A DNA stretch of 64,000 bases, from assembly GCF_019633745.1 (NCBI RefSeq), contig NZ_CP037968.1:2238789-2302788 (forward strand). Direction: 5' to 3'. The DNA comes from Methanofollis formosanus. GTDB lineage: Archaea > Halobacteriota > Methanomicrobia > Methanomicrobiales > Methanofollaceae. This document shows, piece by piece, positions 6,407 to 52,080 of this stretch. Numbering within the stretch: position 1 is the first letter of the stretch; each line of letters opens with the position of its first letter. The notes beneath the pieces were generated by a model. The model did not search any database. It saw only the letters and a list, made by a program, of their open reading frames with translations, and was not told where the DNA came from. The position numbers were made by a program, and so were the translations under genes.

Positions 6407-6721
6407 ACAGCATGATTCAACCCCTTTTCAGGCCGTTTGATCTTTGCAGCATCTGCTGCAATGTTGCAAGTGTCACTGCCGGCAGATACTGATCCCGACT
6501 CAAGCTATCCCAGAACTCTCGCACCCTCTCCCGCAGAAGATAAGGGGGAAGGTTGCTGTATTGTCATTGAGCATATCCCAAAAGTATCCCTGGCTCGATC
6601 AATCATCTGGATCGAGACACTTTCTGGCCATTCCTCCGCCCTCCCCACTTCACACCATCGGAGGGGTCAGAGGGCGGCAGCCCCGGTGCGAGTGACGGAG
6701 GAAGGTATGATTGATCCGATG

Positions 6722-6819
6722 TGCCGCCCACAGAGAGAATAAAAAGTGTTTCCTTGCTTTCTCCTGCCTGGGGGAGACCGCCCGAGCCCCCCCACGATAA
6801 AGATAGGGGCGGGGCGGCA
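6722..6819 (+). repeat. Palindromic repeat family, long form (diverged copy)
   Basis: It starts TGCCGCCC and ends GGGGCGGCA, with an internal CCTGGGGGAG...CCCCCCC hairpin and the hallmark AAGATAGGGG near the right end. Upstream, GAAGGTATGATTGATCCGATG corresponds to the flank of the other long-form copies (28417, 44470, 51869). The conserved tail is not recognisable here. Confidence 0.55.
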
Positions 6820-6941
6820 ACAATTTCTCGAACGACACCGTGCTTCAGAACCTTCTTCCACTCACCTATCAAGGCCAGAGAAGTTTTGAGATGGCCTCAT
6901 AGTAAATCGAATATCTCCGCCTGCAGATTCATCGCTCTCAA

Positions 6942-8306: not shown

Positions 8307-8568
8307 AGCATGCTGTGGAAAATTTTTGAGCAGATCTTTGGGGTGTGGAGGGGACCCATGATCAGGAACGCTGCGTCTCGCCGTCTTCCCAACGCGAGGC
8401 GGCGGGAAAGGGTCTGCGATCAGGGCGGTGCGTCTGATCATCGCACCTTCCCCCTCCGGTCGCAGCCACCGAGCCCCCGGGATGGCGATGGGAGTGGAAA
8501 GGCGGACGGATGACTGTGAGGGGGGTTGTGCCCCCCAATATAGAATCCAGAGGTGTAATTCTACACCG
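8307..8568. other. Convergent intergenic spacer
   Basis: It separates two convergent genes. Around 8365-8505 there are GC-rich stretches (GATCATCGCACCTTCCC, GAGCCCCCGGGATGGCG) that recall the flanks of the palindromic repeat family, but the termini are not recognisable. No gene is seen. Confidence 0.4.
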
Positions 8569-14229: not shown

Positions 14230-15002
14230 AATCTTTTTTTTGGCTTTGTAAAATTCGGCATGAACCTGCGGTTCAAGCATACGCGGTCGAACATTTTCTG
14301 AGCGGTGCTTCAGCGTGTGGGGAGATCCCGATCGTTGCGAGAGGGCATCTGAGAGATCTGAGTTCGTCGCCGCCTCCGTCCGATCTTCTCGCGAGACGGC
14401 CCCGCCGGCGGCCCTCGCGTTTCAACGCACGGCAAAACAACAGAAATGAACTCAGGCCATCGCCGTCCCCACCCTCTCCTCTCGCGAGACGGCAGAACGG
14501 GTTCGGTGATGAGGGGACGGCACATCCGGTCGTCACATCTGTCCTGTATTCATGGCCCCGAAGATAGAACCGTGACGGGAGAGGGCCGATCATTATTCCG
14601 GGGATCACGCCACCCCGTACCGCCCCCCGCCCTATCTTTTCGCGAAGTACCAGAAATGATTCTGTGAGGAGGGACGGCAATTCAGATCATGACGCCGTTC
14701 TATTTTCATGACCCCGAAGATAGAACCGGACGGGAAAGGGTTGATCACTCTTCGACGGGATCACGCGTTCGTGCCCTCCCCCGCACTATCTTCTCGCGAG
14801 ACAGCAGAACAGATCCGGTGATGAGGGACGGCACATTTGATCATCACACCCGTCCTGATTTCATGACCCCGAAGATAGAACCGGGATCGGAGGGGGCCGA
14901 TCGTTTTCAGCGGGATCACGCCGCCCCCCGGCGCGAGATGATGGCGGCGTACGATCCGGGGATAGAGAGAAAGCGTGCGATCAGAGGCGCAGCCCGCGCC
15001 TC
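14230..15002. repeat. Array of the 62-bp palindromic repeat family (reverse orientation), convergent intergenic
   Basis: Complete cores lie at 14461-14522, 14618-14679 and 14772-14833 (spacing 157 and 154 bp); degraded pieces lie near 14369-14400 and 14918-14945. Each starts YRCCSYCCCC, carries a TCTTCTCGCGAGA-like centre and ends GGGACGGCA. Between cores, CCCCGAAGATAGAACC and a GGGATCACGCC block recur. A 45-bp left flank (CCTCGCGTTTCAACGCACGG...) is nearly identical to that at 23697-23744. No gene is seen. Confidence 0.8.
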
Positions 15003-23376: not shown

Positions 23377-24251
23377 GGGCGGGGCGTTGCTCGAATTATT
23401 GGCTCTGTAGAAAACCTTCACTTTTCCGGGGATGAGCGCGGCATGTTCTGATCATCACGCCGTCCTGTCGTCCCGGCCCCGAAGATAGATCCCGGACGGG
23501 ATGGGCTGATCATGATTCCGGGGAGTACACCATCTCATGCCGTCCCAACCCTATCCTCTCGCGAGATGGCAGGAAAGATCCGGTGAAAGGGGGGACGGAT
23601 GTTTTGATCGTCGCGCCGTCATGAAACCCGGCAGTGGGGACGCCGCTCCCGATCCTGAACCCTGAAGATAGGGGCGGGACGGCCACGCCGGTGATCCTCG
23701 CGTTTCAATGCACGGCAAAACAATAGAGATGAACTCAGGCCATCGCCGCCCCCGCCCTATCTTCTCGCGAAATTAAAGCAATGATCGGGGACGGCACTCC
23801 TGATCATCACGCCGCCCTGTCGTCGTGACCCCGAAGATAGAACCCGGACGGGAGGTATTTGATCTTTTTTTCAGCGGGAGCACACCAACCCTTGCCGTCC
23901 CCCGTCCTATCTTCTCGCGAAATAACAGAAAAGATTCAATGATCGGGGACGGCACATTCTGATCACCACACCTTTCTCGTCGTTGCGACCCCGAAGATTG
24001 AACCTGGACGGGATGGGCTGATCATGATTCCGAGGAGCACACCATCTCATGCCGTCCCCCGTCCTATCTTCTCGTGAAATAACAGAAAAGATTCAATGAT
24101 CGGGACGGCACATCCTGATCACCACACCTTTCTCGTCTTCGCGACCCCGAAGATAGAATTGGGACTGGGGAGGGCCGATCCCCCTCTCAGCGAGATCACA
24201 CCGTTCCCTATCGTAGAGAACTATCAAAAAGGAGAGTGCGACCGGGGGCTC
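23377..24251. repeat. Array of the palindromic repeat family (reverse orientation), convergent intergenic
   Basis: Cores lie at 23538-23599, 23744-23796 (internally shortened), 23893-23954 and 24050-24110; a decayed end is at 24205-24225. The inter-core sequence with CCCCGAAGATAGAACC, GGATGGGCTGATCATGATTCCG and a G-A-G-C-A-C-A-C-C stretch is repeated. Another fragment at 23660-23680 reads GAAGATAGGGGCGGGACGGC in the opposite sense. No protein gene is seen. Confidence 0.8.
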
Positions 24252-28253: not shown

Positions 28254-28416
28254 GGGGAACCGGGAGGTGATCGGAGGGGCCTTCCCGCCCCCCGGTCCCC
28301 TCGCGCGAAGAAGGGCGGAGGACCGCACCCCCCTCTTCATCGTCATCGCTTCGCCTTCCCGCTCTCATCCTCAGGTCCACCGGCGCGTGTGGTGGGGAAG
28401 GCGTGATGATCGGGTG
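28254..28416. other. Left part of the convergent spacer
   Basis: GC-rich; contains a CCCGCCCCCCGGTCCCC run and the flank GGGGAAGGCGTGATGATCGGG that precedes other long-form repeats. No gene is seen. Confidence 0.4.
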
Positions 28417-28625
28417 TGCCGCCCCCCATCGTAGAATCTTCACCGCCGTCTCGCGCCAGGGGGTTGCACCCCCGGAACCCCCACGGACCGAGGATAGGTG
28501 GGGGCGGCGATGGAACAAGGTTCCCCCCGCTTCTCCTGTCTTGAAAAAGAGCGATCAAGCAAGGGAAATTTTCATCCAGTCTGTTTGAGTCGTGCTCTCG
28601 ACTCATGTCTGATTCTACAGAGCCA
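28417..28625 (+). repeat. Palindromic repeat family, long form with conserved tail
   Basis: The core 28417-28510 starts TGCCGCCCCC and ends GGGGGCGGCGA, with TCTCGCGCC then a GGGGG-TTGCA-CCCCC hairpin and GAGGATAGGTGGGGG. The tail (28511-28625) has TCTCCTGTCTTGAAAAAGAG, AAATTTTCATCC, TTTGAG and a CATGTCTGATTCTACAGAGCC end. The same tail occurs at 44561-44670 and 51965-52080. It lies between convergent genes. Confidence 0.8.
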
Positions 28626-34023: not shown

Positions 34024-35412
34024 TTAAGGCATCGGTGGCCGGGTGCGCTGCCGCCCGATGCACCCGTCCACCAGACCGAGAAACTCCTCTTCCGCTTCCC
34101 TGGGGATATACGCCCCCGCGGCGATCGCGTGGCCGCCGCCGGCCCCGCCGAAGGGTGCGGCCGCCTCGACGAGCGCCGCCTGCAGGTCGACGCCGCCTTC
34201 GACCATCCGGTCGGTCGCCCGCATCGAGACCTTGGTGAGCGAGGGGTCTTCGGGGAGCGAGCACATCACCAGGATCGGTTTGTCGGGATTGAGCCTGGAG
34301 AGGGCCATGCCGGCGCCGATCCCGACGACGGTGTCGGGGAAGCGGTCGCCCACATGGATGTACTGGACGGCGCCGCGTTCTTCCACGCCGGTCTTGAGGA
34401 TGTAGTTCATCAACTCCTTGATCGTCGCCCGGTGGTGGGTGAGCATGTGCTCGGCCTCCCGCAGGGCGACGCCGCGGTCGTCGGCGCAGACCGCGGCCCC
34501 GACCTCCGGCCTGGCCCACCGCCCGCAGGCGTTGAGGAGGGTGGAGAACTCGGCGGCGTTCCTGAGTGCGGTGTGCGGGGTCTCGTCGGGGAAGAGGTAG
34601 AGTTCGGCGGTGAGTTTCTCGACGTCCCCGCCGTCGGCGATGACCTGTTCGGCGAGGGCCGAGGTGATGCTCTGCCGTTCGCCGTCGTCGAGGTCTTCCC
34701 AGACCCGCCACCGGCCTTCGCCGGTCCTGGTCCGGATCCCGTGGCGTTCCAGGAGCCGGCGGGCGCCCTGCGGGTTGCCGGTCACGCCCTGCACCGGGGT
34801 CTCGCTGCTGTAGGCGAGAGAGATGTGGAGGGGCCGGGTGGAGATCCCGAAGATGTTGAGGTCGCGCCTGGCGGCGACGTTGCCGTACTCGATCCCGTCC
34901 GCGGCGATCTCCCTGGCCGGGCCGATGAGCCCGCAGTCTTCTCTGGCCATCATGTCGCCGACGTTCCCGATGACGGCGAGTTTGGCCAGGTCCCGGTTGT
35001 CGGCGTCGATCGCCCTGGCGACGAGGTACGCCGCCCCGGCGGCCGAGAACTTGGTGTGGCCGTACGGGAGGGCGTTCACCTGGAGGTAGGGGGTGTCGAC
35101 CTCCTGCGAGACGTGGTGGTCGACGATCACCACCTCGTCCTCGGTGAGGCCGTGCTCTTCGAGGAGGTTTTGTTGTCCTGCCCCGAGGTCGGAGAAGACT
35201 TTGAGGCTGTTGTCCTGCGGGACGCGGTGCATCATCAGCGGTTCGAGTTGCCGGAGAAAGACCGGCGTCGCCATCACGCCGGCACGGGTGATGGCCTGCA
35301 TCAGCACCGAGAGGCTGGTGATCCCGTCGGCGTCGATATGGGAGATGACGGTCACCTCGTCGGCGTCCAGGATCCGGTCTGCAGCCTCGCGCACCTCGCC
35401 CTCAAGAGTCAT
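34024..35412 (-). CDS. DHH/DHHA1 phosphoesterase (archaeal RecJ-like)
   Basis: 462 aa from the ATG at 35412; the open frame continues upstream only through repeat DNA. DHH motifs are SHIDADGITSLSVL, VIVDHHVS and GNVGDMMARED. The C-terminal DHHA1 domain ends in GGAGGGHAIAAGAYIP. Archaeal members are single-stranded DNA/RNA exonucleases (RecJ/GAN type) or nanoRNases, using manganese. Monocistronic; divergent from nnr across a 1.3-kb repeat array. Confidence 0.9.
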   Translation of the reverse strand: MTLEGEVREAADRILDADEVTVISHIDADGITSLSVLMQAITRAGVMATPVFLRQLEPLMMHRVPQDNSLKVFSDLGAGQQNLLEEHGLTEDEVVIVDHHVSQEVDTPYLQVNALPYGHTKFSAAGAAYLVARAIDADNRDLAKLAVIGNVGDMMAREDCGLIGPAREIAADGIEYGNVAARRDLNIFGISTRPLHISLAYSSETPVQGVTGNPQGARRLLERHGIRTRTGEGRWRVWEDLDDGERQSITSALAEQVIADGGDVEKLTAELYLFPDETPHTALRNAAEFSTLLNACGRWARPEVGAAVCADDRGVALREAEHMLTHHRATIKELMNYILKTGVEERGAVQYIHVGDRFPDTVVGIGAGMALSRLNPDKPILVMCSLPEDPSLTKVSMRATDRMVEGGVDLQAALVEAAAPFGGAGGGHAIAAGAYIPREAEEEFLGLVDGCIGRQRTRPPMP

Positions 35413-36757
35413 GGCTGTATGTACCTTGTCGCTGTCATATAATGCATCGGGTGATGGTCGGTGCCGGGGAATTGTGGCGACGGTGAAGTCCTCGGCGCGA
35501 GGGTGTGAGAAGGCGTGATGATCGGGCGTGTCGTCCCCTATCACTGAATCTGTTCTGCCGTCTCGCGAGAGGATGGGGCGGGGGACGGCACAGGGTGGTG
35601 TACTATCTCCCATCCGGCTCTATCTCCAGGGTCATGAAAGCAGCACAGCATCGTGATCAGAACGACCGCCCCCTCATCACCGGATCTGCTCTGCTATTTC
35701 GCGAGAAGATAGGGCGGAGGACGGCATCACACGCGTTCCCACTGAAAACGGATCAGTGCTCTCCCTTACGGGTTCTCTCTTCGGGGTCGCGGCGACGGGG
35801 AAGGCACGTTGATCAACTGTGCCGTCCCCCATCGCCGAATATGTTCTGTCGTCTCGCGAGAGGATGGGGCGGGGGACGGCACGGGGCGTGTTCCTGTTGA
35901 AGAATGATCGGCCCTCTCCCGTCCTGATTCTATCTTCGGGGTCATGAAAGTGGGACGGCAACATGATCAAACCATGCCGTCCCTCATCATCGATCTGTTC
36001 TGCCGTCTCGCGAGAGGATAGGGTGGGGACGGCACGGGGCGTGTTCCTGTTGAAGAATGATCGGCCCTCTCCCGTCCTGATTCTATCTTCGGGGTCATGA
36101 AAGTGGGACGGCAACATGATCAAACCATGCCGTCCCCTCATCGGAGAACTGTTCTGCCGTCTCGCGAGAGGATAGGGTGGGGACGGCGAAGAGTTGCGTG
36201 CCCTTCCCCTGTTCCGGTTCTATCTTCGGGGTCATGAAAGTGGGACGGCAACATGATCAAACCATGCCGTCCCCTCATCATCAAATCTTTCCCGCCGTCT
36301 CGCGAGAAGATAGGACGGGGACGGCGAAGATTGGTGTGTCCTTCCCCTGTCCCAGGTCTATCTTTGAGGTCATGACAACAGGGTGGGTGTGGTGATCGAT
36401 GTGCCGTCCCCTCATCGGAGAACTGTTCTGCCGTCTCGCGAGAAGATAGGGTGGGGACGGCACAGGGCGGCGTGATCCCGCTGAAACGAAATCGGCCCCT
36501 TCCTGTCCTGGTTCTATCTTCAGGGTCGCGACGGCGGGGGGTGTGGTGATCAGACCGTGCCATCCCCTCATCATCAAATCTTTCCCGCCGTCTCGCGCGA
36601 GGATAGGCAGGGGCGGCATTATACCCGGCACGATCGCTGTTCTCTTCGCGTCTCTCCCCCCCATCTCCCCTCAATCCTGAGGGAGGTGATGGATTCTCCA
36701 GAGCCAAAAATTTCTATGGAGGAACCGCGAAAAAGGACGTTTTGAGAAGGATATACC
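35413..36757. repeat. Eight-unit array of the palindromic repeat family (forward orientation)
   Basis: Cores lie at 35529-35590, 35664-35726, 35820-35881, 35975-36034, 36128-36188, 36265-36326, 36402-36462 and 36558-36618; start-to-start spacing is 135, 156, 155, 153, 137, 137 and 156 bp. Each has TGCCGTCCCC, a GCCGTCTCGCGAGA centre, GAAGATAGG or GGATAGGG, and GGGGACGGC. The spacers are also related (CTATCTTCGGGGTCATGAAAG, GGGACGGCAACATGATCAAACCA), unlike CRISPR spacers. It lies between divergent genes and no protein gene is seen. Confidence 0.9.
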
Positions 36758-38615: not shown

Positions 38616-38719
38616 GGGTTCTGTCTGAGAATTTTTTTTCGGGAGGCATGGTCGGGAACAGAACTGTTTCCTTCAGATTTTTCAACGTGGCTCCCCCCTG
38701 TGCAGCGGGTGATCGGATG

Positions 38720-38812
38720 TGCCGCCCCTATTACAGAATCTTCACCGCCGTCTCGCGCCGGGGGGTTTCACCCCCCGGATCCCCCACGGAGAGAAGATAG
38801 ATGGGGGCGGCA
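38720..38812 (+). repeat. Palindromic repeat family, long form without tail
   Basis: Starts TGCCGCCCC, has TCTCGCGCC, a GGGGGG-TTTCA-CCCCCC hairpin, GAGAAGATAGATG and ends GGGGGCGGCA. The conserved tail of the other long copies is not recognisable here. It lies between moaC and the L15e leader (codirectional genes). Confidence 0.75.
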
Positions 38813-39008
38813 AGGGGTGGTGCTCTCTCATCTACAATCTGAGAGTGATTTGAACATTCAGGATCTCCTATGTGCCCGAGGAAAGGGGATCGGATCGATC
38901 CTGGTGTTCGGAACAATAATATTCCCTCGAAGTCTAAGTATACAGAACCACGGGATCCGTCCCGTTGAGGTATGTGGCGCGCAAGCGCCGAACCTGAGGT
39001 GAATACGA
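38813..39008 (+). promoter_or_regulatory. Leader of the L15e operon
   Basis: Contains a TATA-like AAGTATAC (near 38935-38942), a CGGGATCCGTCCCG hairpin, a GGCGCGCAAGCGCC hairpin and an SD (GAGGTG) before the ATG at 39009. The two hairpins in the leader could bind a ribosomal protein, but no known site is recognised. Confidence 0.4.
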
Positions 39009-43674: not shown

Positions 43675-44469
43675 AGCCGTCTCTTTTTTTGTTCTTTTTG
43701 GTTTTCTCCGGAGCCTGCGCGCCCGAAATCCGCTCCCAATCCGGGTTCCTCTTCCGTGGTTTTCAGGGACGTACCGGGGTCCATGGACGGGTGATATTAC
43801 TGGAGATCATATGGAGCTTCTGCGGGCGTTGTGAGGCCTGGTTTCTTTTCTGGATTGGAGAAAATACGGCCTCTCCGGGCAGATCCGAAATGGGGCTTGA
43901 TCTGGCCCCGGATTGGGGGTTTTGTTCCTGAAACGGGGGACGATATGGGCGTATCCGGGGGCGGGTCCGCTGTGGTGAGATCCGATCGTTCGCCTTCCTT
44001 CGCCGTCGTCTCGCGCCGGGGGTTGTACCCCCGGACTCGAAGTCCTCCGGCCTTCTCGAACTCGCTCACGCTCGTTCCCCCGACGGACAGAGATAGGCGG
44101 GGGCGGCAATGAGGCGGGAGTCTCATATAGTCTCCTGTTCTGAAGGGTGAGCACGGATCCAAACACCTAGGAGACCCACGATCATTTTCATCCCGTATGC
44201 TTGAGCCCCAGGCTCATGCCCGATTCAACAGAGCCGCTTGAGGCGTGTTCTCAACTCGTCCCTGATTGCCATGAAAATAATCCCGAATATTGTCTCTATA
44301 GATTTGCATGACGATTTGAACTCACGAAATCTCATTGAGTCCAATACACAGAGATAGAAACACCTTCAGAGTGATCGGCCCTCTGCCTTCCCGGCCCTAT
44401 CTTCATCCCAGGGGTCCGGGCGGCAATCGCCCCCGGCGCAAGGATGTGGGAAGGTGTGATGATCAGATG
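43675..44469. repeat. Convergent spacer with a diverged long-form repeat
   Basis: Around 43971-44108 there is GCCGTCGTCTCGCGCC, GGGGG-TTGTA-CCCCC, an extra insert (GAACTCGCTCACGCTCGTTC), then AGATAGGCGGGGGCGGCAATG. A tail with ATTTTCATCC and GTATGCTTGAG follows at 44178-44210. The left end is not clear. The flank of the next copy (CTATCTTCATCCCAGGGGTCC) is at 44398-44418. No gene is seen. Confidence 0.65.
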
Positions 44470-44670
44470 TGCCGCCCCTATCGCAGAATCTTTCCTGATA
44501 TCTTGCGCCTGGGGGAAACTCCCCCGGACCCCCCACGAACGAAGATAGGTGGGGGCGGCGATGGAATGGGGTCTCCACCAGTTCTTCTGTCTTGAAAATA
44601 AGCGATCAAACGACGATAAATTTTCATCCCGTATGTTTGGGGTGTGCGTTCGCTTCATGAACAATTCTAC
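44470..44670 (+). repeat. Palindromic repeat family, long form with tail
   Basis: Core 44470-44560 begins TGCCGCCCCTATCGCAGAAT and ends GATAGGTGGGGGCGGCG. The left outer arm CCTATCTTC...AGGGGTCCGGG (44397-44421) pairs with CCGGACCCCC...GAAGATAGG at 44524-44549. Tail: TTCTTCTGTCTTGAAAA, TAAATTTTCATCC, GTATGTTTG. Convergent spacer before the LeuA-type gene's 3' end. Confidence 0.8.
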
Positions 44671-44806
44671 AAACTCGTTCAGGCATATCGTTGGCCCGTC
44701 CCGGACACCTTCGAGCGGCCCCCCACACAAAGATCGATCCAGAGGCCCTCTCCCGCACTCTCTATCCCAAAAAAGCGATGAGGGAAGGGTCTCCCTCCCC
44801 TCGTCT

Positions 44807-51429: not shown

Positions 51430-51868
51430 AGGTTCTCATTACCCCGGATTAATGTTGCGAAATCGCCCTCCCTATTCTAAAAAGCATGGTACATATGCCT
51501 TTCTTCTTTACGGAATATTTTTTATGGTGGGTCTGTACTTAATGCCGCTCCGGGCTGTCTCCCCCCTCCCGTCTCTTGCTATCATTTCTCAGTATTATAT
51601 ATTGGCTTTGCAGCGCTCTTCCCCTCTCACGACAGGGGTCTCGGTCCGATCCTCTCTCCCCCCGCGGACGCGGTCGAAGTTCGCCGGTTCCATCCCCCTG
51701 TATCCGGCGTCTGGTCCTCTCTGCAGGGGGGCCTTCCGTGAAGATGGGCGGGGGACGGCATCCTGTCTTTCAGGATCTTTTCTTCAGCCTTCCCGGGCCT
51801 ATCTTCATCCCGGGGATCCAGTGGCGGCGCCCCCGGCGCCGTGTTGCGGGAAGGTACGCTGATCAGAA
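51430..51868. other. Upstream spacer before the long-form repeat
   Basis: A short AT-rich part (51470-51610), presumably with the promoter of the 51157-51160 operon, is followed by a GC-rich part. The latter includes GGGGGACGGCATCC (51751-51764), CCTATCTTCATCCCGGGGATCC (51799-51820) and a CGCCCCCGGCGCCG hairpin, which are the left part of the repeat unit whose core starts at 51869. No gene is seen. Confidence 0.5.
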
Positions 51869-52080
51869 TGGCCGCCCCCATCGCAGAACTTTCACCGTCA
51901 TCTCGCGCCGGGGGGGTTGCACCCCCCGGACCCCCCCCCACGATGAAGATAGGTGGGGGCGGCGATGGAACACGATCCTCACCGATTCTCCTGTCTTGAA
52001 AAAGAGTGATCGAGCAACGAAAAATTTTCATCTGGTATGCTTGAGGCGTGCTCTCGTCTCATGTCGGATTGTACACGATT
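51869..52080 (+). repeat. Palindromic repeat family, long form with tail
   Basis: Core 51869-51964: TGGCCGCCCCC, ATCTCGCGCC, a GGGGGGGTTGCACCCCCC hairpin, GATGAAGATAGGTG and GGGGCGGCG. Tail: TTCTCCTGTCTTGAAAAAGA, GAAAAATTTTCATC, GTATGCTTGAGG and TCATGTCGGATTGTACA, matching 28511-28625. It lies directly beside the TnpB element. Confidence 0.8.

Follow-up and report, generated by a model that had tools for sequence, protein, structure and literature searches.

Intergenic repeat arrays of Methanofollis formosanus as a probable tandem expansion of a REPIN/BIME-like element

Introduction

The REPINs and BIMEs of P. fluorescens and E. coli are short intergenic palindromes that form inverted pairs and reach hundreds of copies (PMC3116915, PMC2817692), and REPINs also occur in ordered tandem clusters that include their flanks (PMC3116915). 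The repeats of Methanofollis formosanus described here share these traits, but they belong to an archaeon, they lie head to tail as diverged units of about 137 or 156 bp, no RAYT gene was found in the genome, and 51 arrays were sampled, compared with 16 ordered REPIN clusters in SBW25 (PMC3116915). The recurrent G-quadruplex/triplex motifs of Methanomicrobiaceae are intergenic, about half tail-to-tail and 11% head-to-head, with no orientation preference (PMC8044849). The G-rich hairpin in single copies of our element resembles that motif, as judged from its description rather than from exact published sequences: a G-rich hairpin with a TC(C/A) central loop is reported for a Methanofollis, and the placement is similar. 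That work, however, describes just the G-rich core; in our element a similar hairpin forms a single module within a longer structure, and it is absent from the arrays.

The SMRs and PATEs of Haloquadratum, compared by description and not by sequence, are likewise transposase-free archaeal repeats; the accessible part of that paper reports near-terminal palindromes in PATEs, and inverted ends unrelated to known transposons without target duplication in SMRs, but does not mention tandem arrays (PMC3119063). Noncoding satellites of Methanocella conradii and Leptospira also form related tandem arrays scattered over one genome, but their repeat units are 37-69 nt long (PMC6749651). M. formosanus does not appear in the accessible part of that survey, which describes the passage from interspersed to tandem repeats as rare in prokaryotes (PMC6749651); its own genome paper came later (2022).

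No description of the array family was found in the literature searched. Our best reading is that in M. formosanus an archaeal element made of REPIN/BIME-like doublets became dozens of satellite-like arrays, unusual in scale. In its sister species M. aquaemaris, whose genes are about 90% identical, single copies predominate, and the transition from dispersed to tandem repeats can be compared site by site between the two species. The arrays also account for a type of intergenic sequence liable to mislead the annotation of genes and CRISPRs.

Results and Discussion

Arrays and single copies in the window

The window is the whole stretch of M. formosanus DNA that was analyzed, 64,000 nucleotides in length. 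A first-pass annotation had placed eight cores, 135-156 bp apart, at about 35.5-36.6 kb, and further arrays at 14461-14833 and 23538-24110. All three arrays were recovered by profile search (best E = 4e-39 for the array-unit profile in the window), the latter two on the minus strand and slightly longer than proposed. In the main array, TCTCGCGAGA-like central motifs start at 35561, 35697, 35852, 36006, 36160, 36298, 36434 and 36591, giving a measured spacing of 136-157 bp. With at most one mismatch, this motif occurs 14 times in the window against 4.8 expected, a count that none of 100 shuffles reached. The core limits listed below are those of the profile matches, which include the end of the linker from the second core on.

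35506-36621, plus strand: main array, eight cores and seven homologous linkers (profile matches)
35506-35611, 35619-35727, 35773-35893 and 35928-36046, plus strand: cores 1-4 of the main array
36081-36213, 36218-36351, 36357-36479 and 36512-36621, plus strand: cores 5-8 of the main array
35497-35540, plus strand: first-unit leader (CTCGGCGCGAGGGTGTGAGAAGGCGTGATGATC), which by comparison with the single-copy consensus belongs to the single-copy and not the internal-unit type
36692-36705, plus strand: degenerate 3' terminus of the parent element, GATTCTCCAGAGCC then AAAAA
14353-14922, minus strand: second array, three full units and one partial unit with linkers
14242-14295, minus strand: terminal hairpin on the 3' side of the second array
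23425-24202, minus strand: third array, five units with linkers
23401-23414, minus strand: possible 3' terminus of the third array (GGCTCTGTAGAAAA on the plus strand)
28385-28624, plus strand: single copy (28385-28524) and its 3' terminal hairpin (28567-28624)
38708-38831, plus strand: single copy with a central G-rich hairpin
43998-44235, plus strand: partial single copy, terminal hairpin at 44184-44235
44438-44673, plus strand: single copy, terminal hairpin at 44619-44673
51844-52076, plus strand: single copy, terminal hairpin at 52023-52076
6693-6822, plus strand: single copy detected by the single-copy model alone
8374-8454, minus strand: weak, partial single copy

At the orthologous M. 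aquaemaris site, a terminus akin to GATTCTCCAGAGCC reads GATACACCAGAGCCAAAA.

The array family across the genome

The M. formosanus genome is a single contig of 2,965,921 bp (that of M. aquaemaris has 2,746,416 bp), and the counts given here were drawn from sampled stretches and searches. A profile seeded with one unit gave 351 matches in 84 clusters within 34 stretches (0.53 Mb) chosen around BLAST matches; with a score above 25 required, 51 multi-copy arrays remain in this array-rich sample, together with 25 single copies. Across the whole genome, BLAST gave 202 matches, and the 150 best matches to the core model fall into about 60 clusters, some of them beyond the sample. The layout is core-(linker-core)n, with a core at both ends, and the units (157-bp consensus ttCtATCTTCGGGGTCATGAnaaCgGgAcgGcgTgaTGATCagAacgTGCCGTCCCctcaTCaccggATCTgTtCTGccnTcTCGCGAGAaGATAGgnCGGGGGACGGCAcggggnGcGTGaTCCcgctGAaaAanGATCggCccTcTCCcGTCCnGg) fall into two main length and period classes, 134-139 and 153-162 bp, which are mixed within arrays.

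The inter-core sequences had been described as similar to one another, unlike CRISPR spacers, and this proved correct: a linker consensus, gnnGcgTGntcCcgctGAanAanGATCggCcctcTcCCGTCCnGgTtCtATCTTCGGGGTCATGAnaaC, derived from 211 linkers, fits the arrays. Since a CRISPR array needs near-identical short repeats and unrelated spacers, and the linkers here are homologous across arrays while the units are only about 73-79% alike, that identity was rejected.

The strain sequenced, M. formosanus DSM 15483T (CP037968.1), was assembled from 300-bp MiSeq reads alone (PMC9119062), and the main array contains two 112-nt stretches identical to each other, as might be seen if the arrays were partly an artefact of short-read assembly. 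This is extremely unlikely: similar arrays occur in independently assembled genomes, and reads can place the units because most of them differ by about 20%. The copy number of an array may nevertheless be wrong, and because M. aquaemaris BCRC 16166T is also a MiSeq-only assembly (PMC9583781), copy numbers are less certain than the presence of arrays in both species.

As the first-pass annotation had stated, the copies lie outside genes, and no sampled copy falls in a convincing gene. The sole overlap is with the long-start version of an ORF at 34024-35544, for which a start at 35409 keeps the DHH/DHHA1 domains. By gene calls from a simple codon-usage script, 33 of 73 convergent gene gaps carry an element versus 7 of 73 divergent ones (p = 2e-6); these loci were picked for holding arrays, a choice that does not favour convergent gaps over divergent ones. 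Placement favours gene 3' ends. In tandem gaps, 15 elements are oriented with the genes and 18 against them.

A structured RNA is poorly supported by folding and covariation

The same annotation had left the choice between a MITE/REP-like element and a transcribed structured RNA. The first part stood, since a dispersed, intergenic, hairpin-ended relative is found in about half of the genus genomes searched (see below). Were each unit instead a transcribed small RNA or RNA processing unit, one might expect what is seen in the inverted arms TGCCGTCCC/GGGGACGGCA that flank each core, where columns 53 and 104 co-vary from T-A to C-G, and in a period and length that are kept despite units only about 73-79% alike. 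Mutual information was computed over 194 units, and these two columns, a Watson-Crick pair in the arms, are among the top pairs; they are the single covarying pair and may reflect the mere mixing of two subfamilies. Among the 100 column pairs with the strongest co-variation, just 6 are mainly of Watson-Crick type. A covariation check on the copies, proposed along with the RNA idea, yielded an alifold consensus of -2.26 kcal/mol with 8 weak pairs and no convincing covarying stem, and fold z-scores were -0.9 and -1.3 on the two strands. A long stem spanning the whole unit had also been suggested from CTATCTTC pairing with GAAGATAG; the 8-bp complementarity exists, but a direct test found no covariation. 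Orientation relative to flanking genes is random (the 15 and 18 cases above), and the arrays have no Rfam match. On folding, alifold, mutual information and the direct stem test, a structured RNA was rejected, and we regard it as very unlikely.

Array units correspond to the middle of a dispersed element

Both modules appear in the consensus of the single copies and in that of the array units, and the array units match the middle of a REP/MITE-like element of 330-450 bp that is singly dispersed in part of the genus. This parent element has two palindromic modules around TGATCA, G-rich hairpins within, and hairpin ends reading GATTCTACAGAGCC. The second module lies upstream of the core (GCCTTCCC..TATCTTC..CCGGGGGcagcgCCCCCGG..GAAGAT..GGGAAGGC) and, judged by eye on the consensus without a separate statistic, can be interpreted as a relative of the core module in inverted orientation. 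The two modules, M1 and M2, thus form intergenic inverted palindrome pairs at high copy, the arrangement that marks REPINs and BIMEs.

Most single copies have their TCTCGCGAGA palindrome split by a G-rich hairpin, CCGGGGGG..CCCCCCGGACCCCCC (38708-38831 in the window; loci L182-L231 in M. aquaemaris). Single copies of M. aquaemaris have the same core, mostly with the G-rich hairpin CCGGGGGGcgttgCCCCCCGGACCCCCCACGgcGA replacing the end of TCTCGCGAGA. The hairpin is present in 63 scored copies and absent from 2, and the hairpin-less form is that of 165 internal array units.

Beyond a tail, the copies terminate in ATTTTCATCCCGTATGCTTGAGCC...GGTTCATGCCTGATTCTACAGAGCC, after which the sequence is A-rich, and the same end is found inverted on the opposite side, so that outward pairs surround copies of 230-450 bp; neighbouring terminal hairpins are in the order -+ in 22 cases versus +- in 7. 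MITE-like structure, with terminal inverted repeats and a length too short for a transposase, is shown for the parent copies rather than for the arrays. Terminal hairpins are of two types, short-loop and long-loop. Pairing occurs in their stems but does not exceed that of column shuffles (340 paired cells versus a mean of 339, and 374 versus 371), and therefore no covariation is claimed for them. Outside the element ends (e.g. 36706-36710 in the window), the flanks are A-rich, with about 48-58% A at positions 2-6; this may represent T-tract terminators belonging to the adjacent genes, or a preference of the element for such sites when inserting.

This architecture, a palindromic module doublet with subterminal hairpins, is also that of a REPIN/RAYT-type system, in which a Y1 tyrosine transposase moves palindromic doublets and which, in P. 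fluorescens, likewise forms tandem clusters (PMC3116915). However, no Y1_Tnp domain (PF01797) was found in M. formosanus or in G003, both rich in copies; three genomes without core matches have one each, and none of the Y1_Tnp loci has a terminal hairpin. Mobilization by a RAYT was rejected on the absence of PF01797 from the M. formosanus genome, and such a system appears quite unlikely, although the enzyme may have been lost since. Four wide pairs of terminal hairpins were read for an autonomous element between them; the enclosed ORFs are ordinary genes, with no transposase recognized by eye.

Distribution in relatives and history of the array sites

A search of 100 Methanomicrobiales genomes with the core, which had been proposed as a check, found it only in Methanofollis. 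Within that genus the core model matches 111 times in M. aquaemaris, 139 times in G003, 59 times in the fragmentary genome G001 and 4-18 times in G008-G010, and it has no match in the five other genomes. M. aquaemaris has 134 clusters of single copies in 0.8 Mb. Terminal hairpins are frequent in every core-bearing genome searched and number 5-7 each in G002, G004 and G011; they are absent from the flanking-gene loci in named genome contigs, mostly of other Methanomicrobiales. Viral relatives were rejected, as IMG/VR matches to linker and terminal words were short chance matches.

Orthologous gaps could be compared for 11 arrays. M. aquaemaris carries one or more elements at 8 of them, usually in fewer copies (p = 6e-5 against a null rate estimated from 134 clusters per roughly 800 gaps). 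At the site of the main array, M. aquaemaris and G003 have one copy each, with the same NAD(P)H-hydrate dehydratase gene lying immediately downstream. The first and last units of arrays tend towards the type seen in single copies (p = 0.03 for first and 0.002 for last units). A terminal hairpin lies within 300 bp of 12 of the 51 arrays, and on the 3' side these are correctly oriented at ten arrays and wrongly at one; because the hairpin is found at only 12, embedding in the parent element is not shown for most arrays.

Taken with these comparisons, the arrays are probably a non-autonomous REPIN/BIME-like or MITE-like element whose inner part was tandemly multiplied by recombination in M. formosanus. 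The parent, dispersed by an original transposition, would have had the order terminal hairpin, M1, TGATCA spacer, M2, tail and second terminal hairpin, over about 330-450 bp, and copies of a shortened form without G-rich hairpins would have accumulated in head-to-tail rows, most likely because direct repeats allowed unequal recombination or replication slippage. Ectopic recombination may then have spread arrays between old element sites. A few arrays with the same linker occur in M. aquaemaris, G001 and G003, and the sharing of a linker across loci argues against separate origins from linker-less copies. Units are 78.5% alike within one array versus 73.2% between arrays, with no fall with distance, which is more readily explained by exchange among arrays than by new local duplication; this is unlike the product of a simple recent local duplication and so counts against the tandem-element reading, as do the three of 11 array sites that have no element in M. 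aquaemaris. Neither a target-site duplication nor a mobilizing enzyme was found, also a point against it; in the target-site comparison, intergenic flanks were too diverged to define an empty site. On our best reading, no function is required to explain the arrays, and none was shown.

Arrays are scarce in one arc of the chromosome

The best 150 core matches all lie between 0.42 and 2.87 Mb of the M. formosanus genome, so that an arc of 0.52 Mb, from 2.87 Mb across 0 to 0.42 Mb, holds none of them (p = 0.0007 if 60 clusters were placed at random). The arc has 26 of 150 terminal hairpins against 26 expected, an even spread. In 480 kb of the arc, 2 of 56 element clusters have the full linker, versus 8 of 39 in comparison stretches, a contrast that is biased if taken alone because known arrays guided part of the choice of those stretches. 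Opposite the arc, at 1.774 Mb, lies the strongest Orc1/Cdc6 gene, and base skews reverse sign at about the same place; the arc may therefore be the terminus side. Both the arc pattern and this placement are suggestive only. Since single copies are even while arrays are nearly absent opposite the likely origin, a further but rather unlikely possibility is that tandem growth depends on chromosomal place, the arrays arising by a replication-linked process or serving as domain-specific DNA sites. No replication-strand bias was apparent on inspection of the array list.

The scarcity of arrays in the arc would also suit candidate protein-binding arrays, kept by selection, that organize the chromosome or act at gene ends. 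Several words are highly conserved in the units (ATCTTCGGGGTCATGA, TGATC and TCTCGCGAGAAGATAG), and GATC occurs 2.9 times per unit, versus 0.5 expected from base composition and about 1.5 from the window rate. We consider such a role unlikely, however, as the units diverge widely and the sister species lives with few arrays. No Dam-like methylase (PF02086) was found in M. formosanus, M. aquaemaris, G001 or G003, and the idea of GATC sites for Dam was rejected on that absence.

Elsewhere in the window, at 53.8-62 kb, long ORFs are present yet mostly uncalled by the codon-usage gene caller, which suggests DNA of different composition, perhaps acquired.
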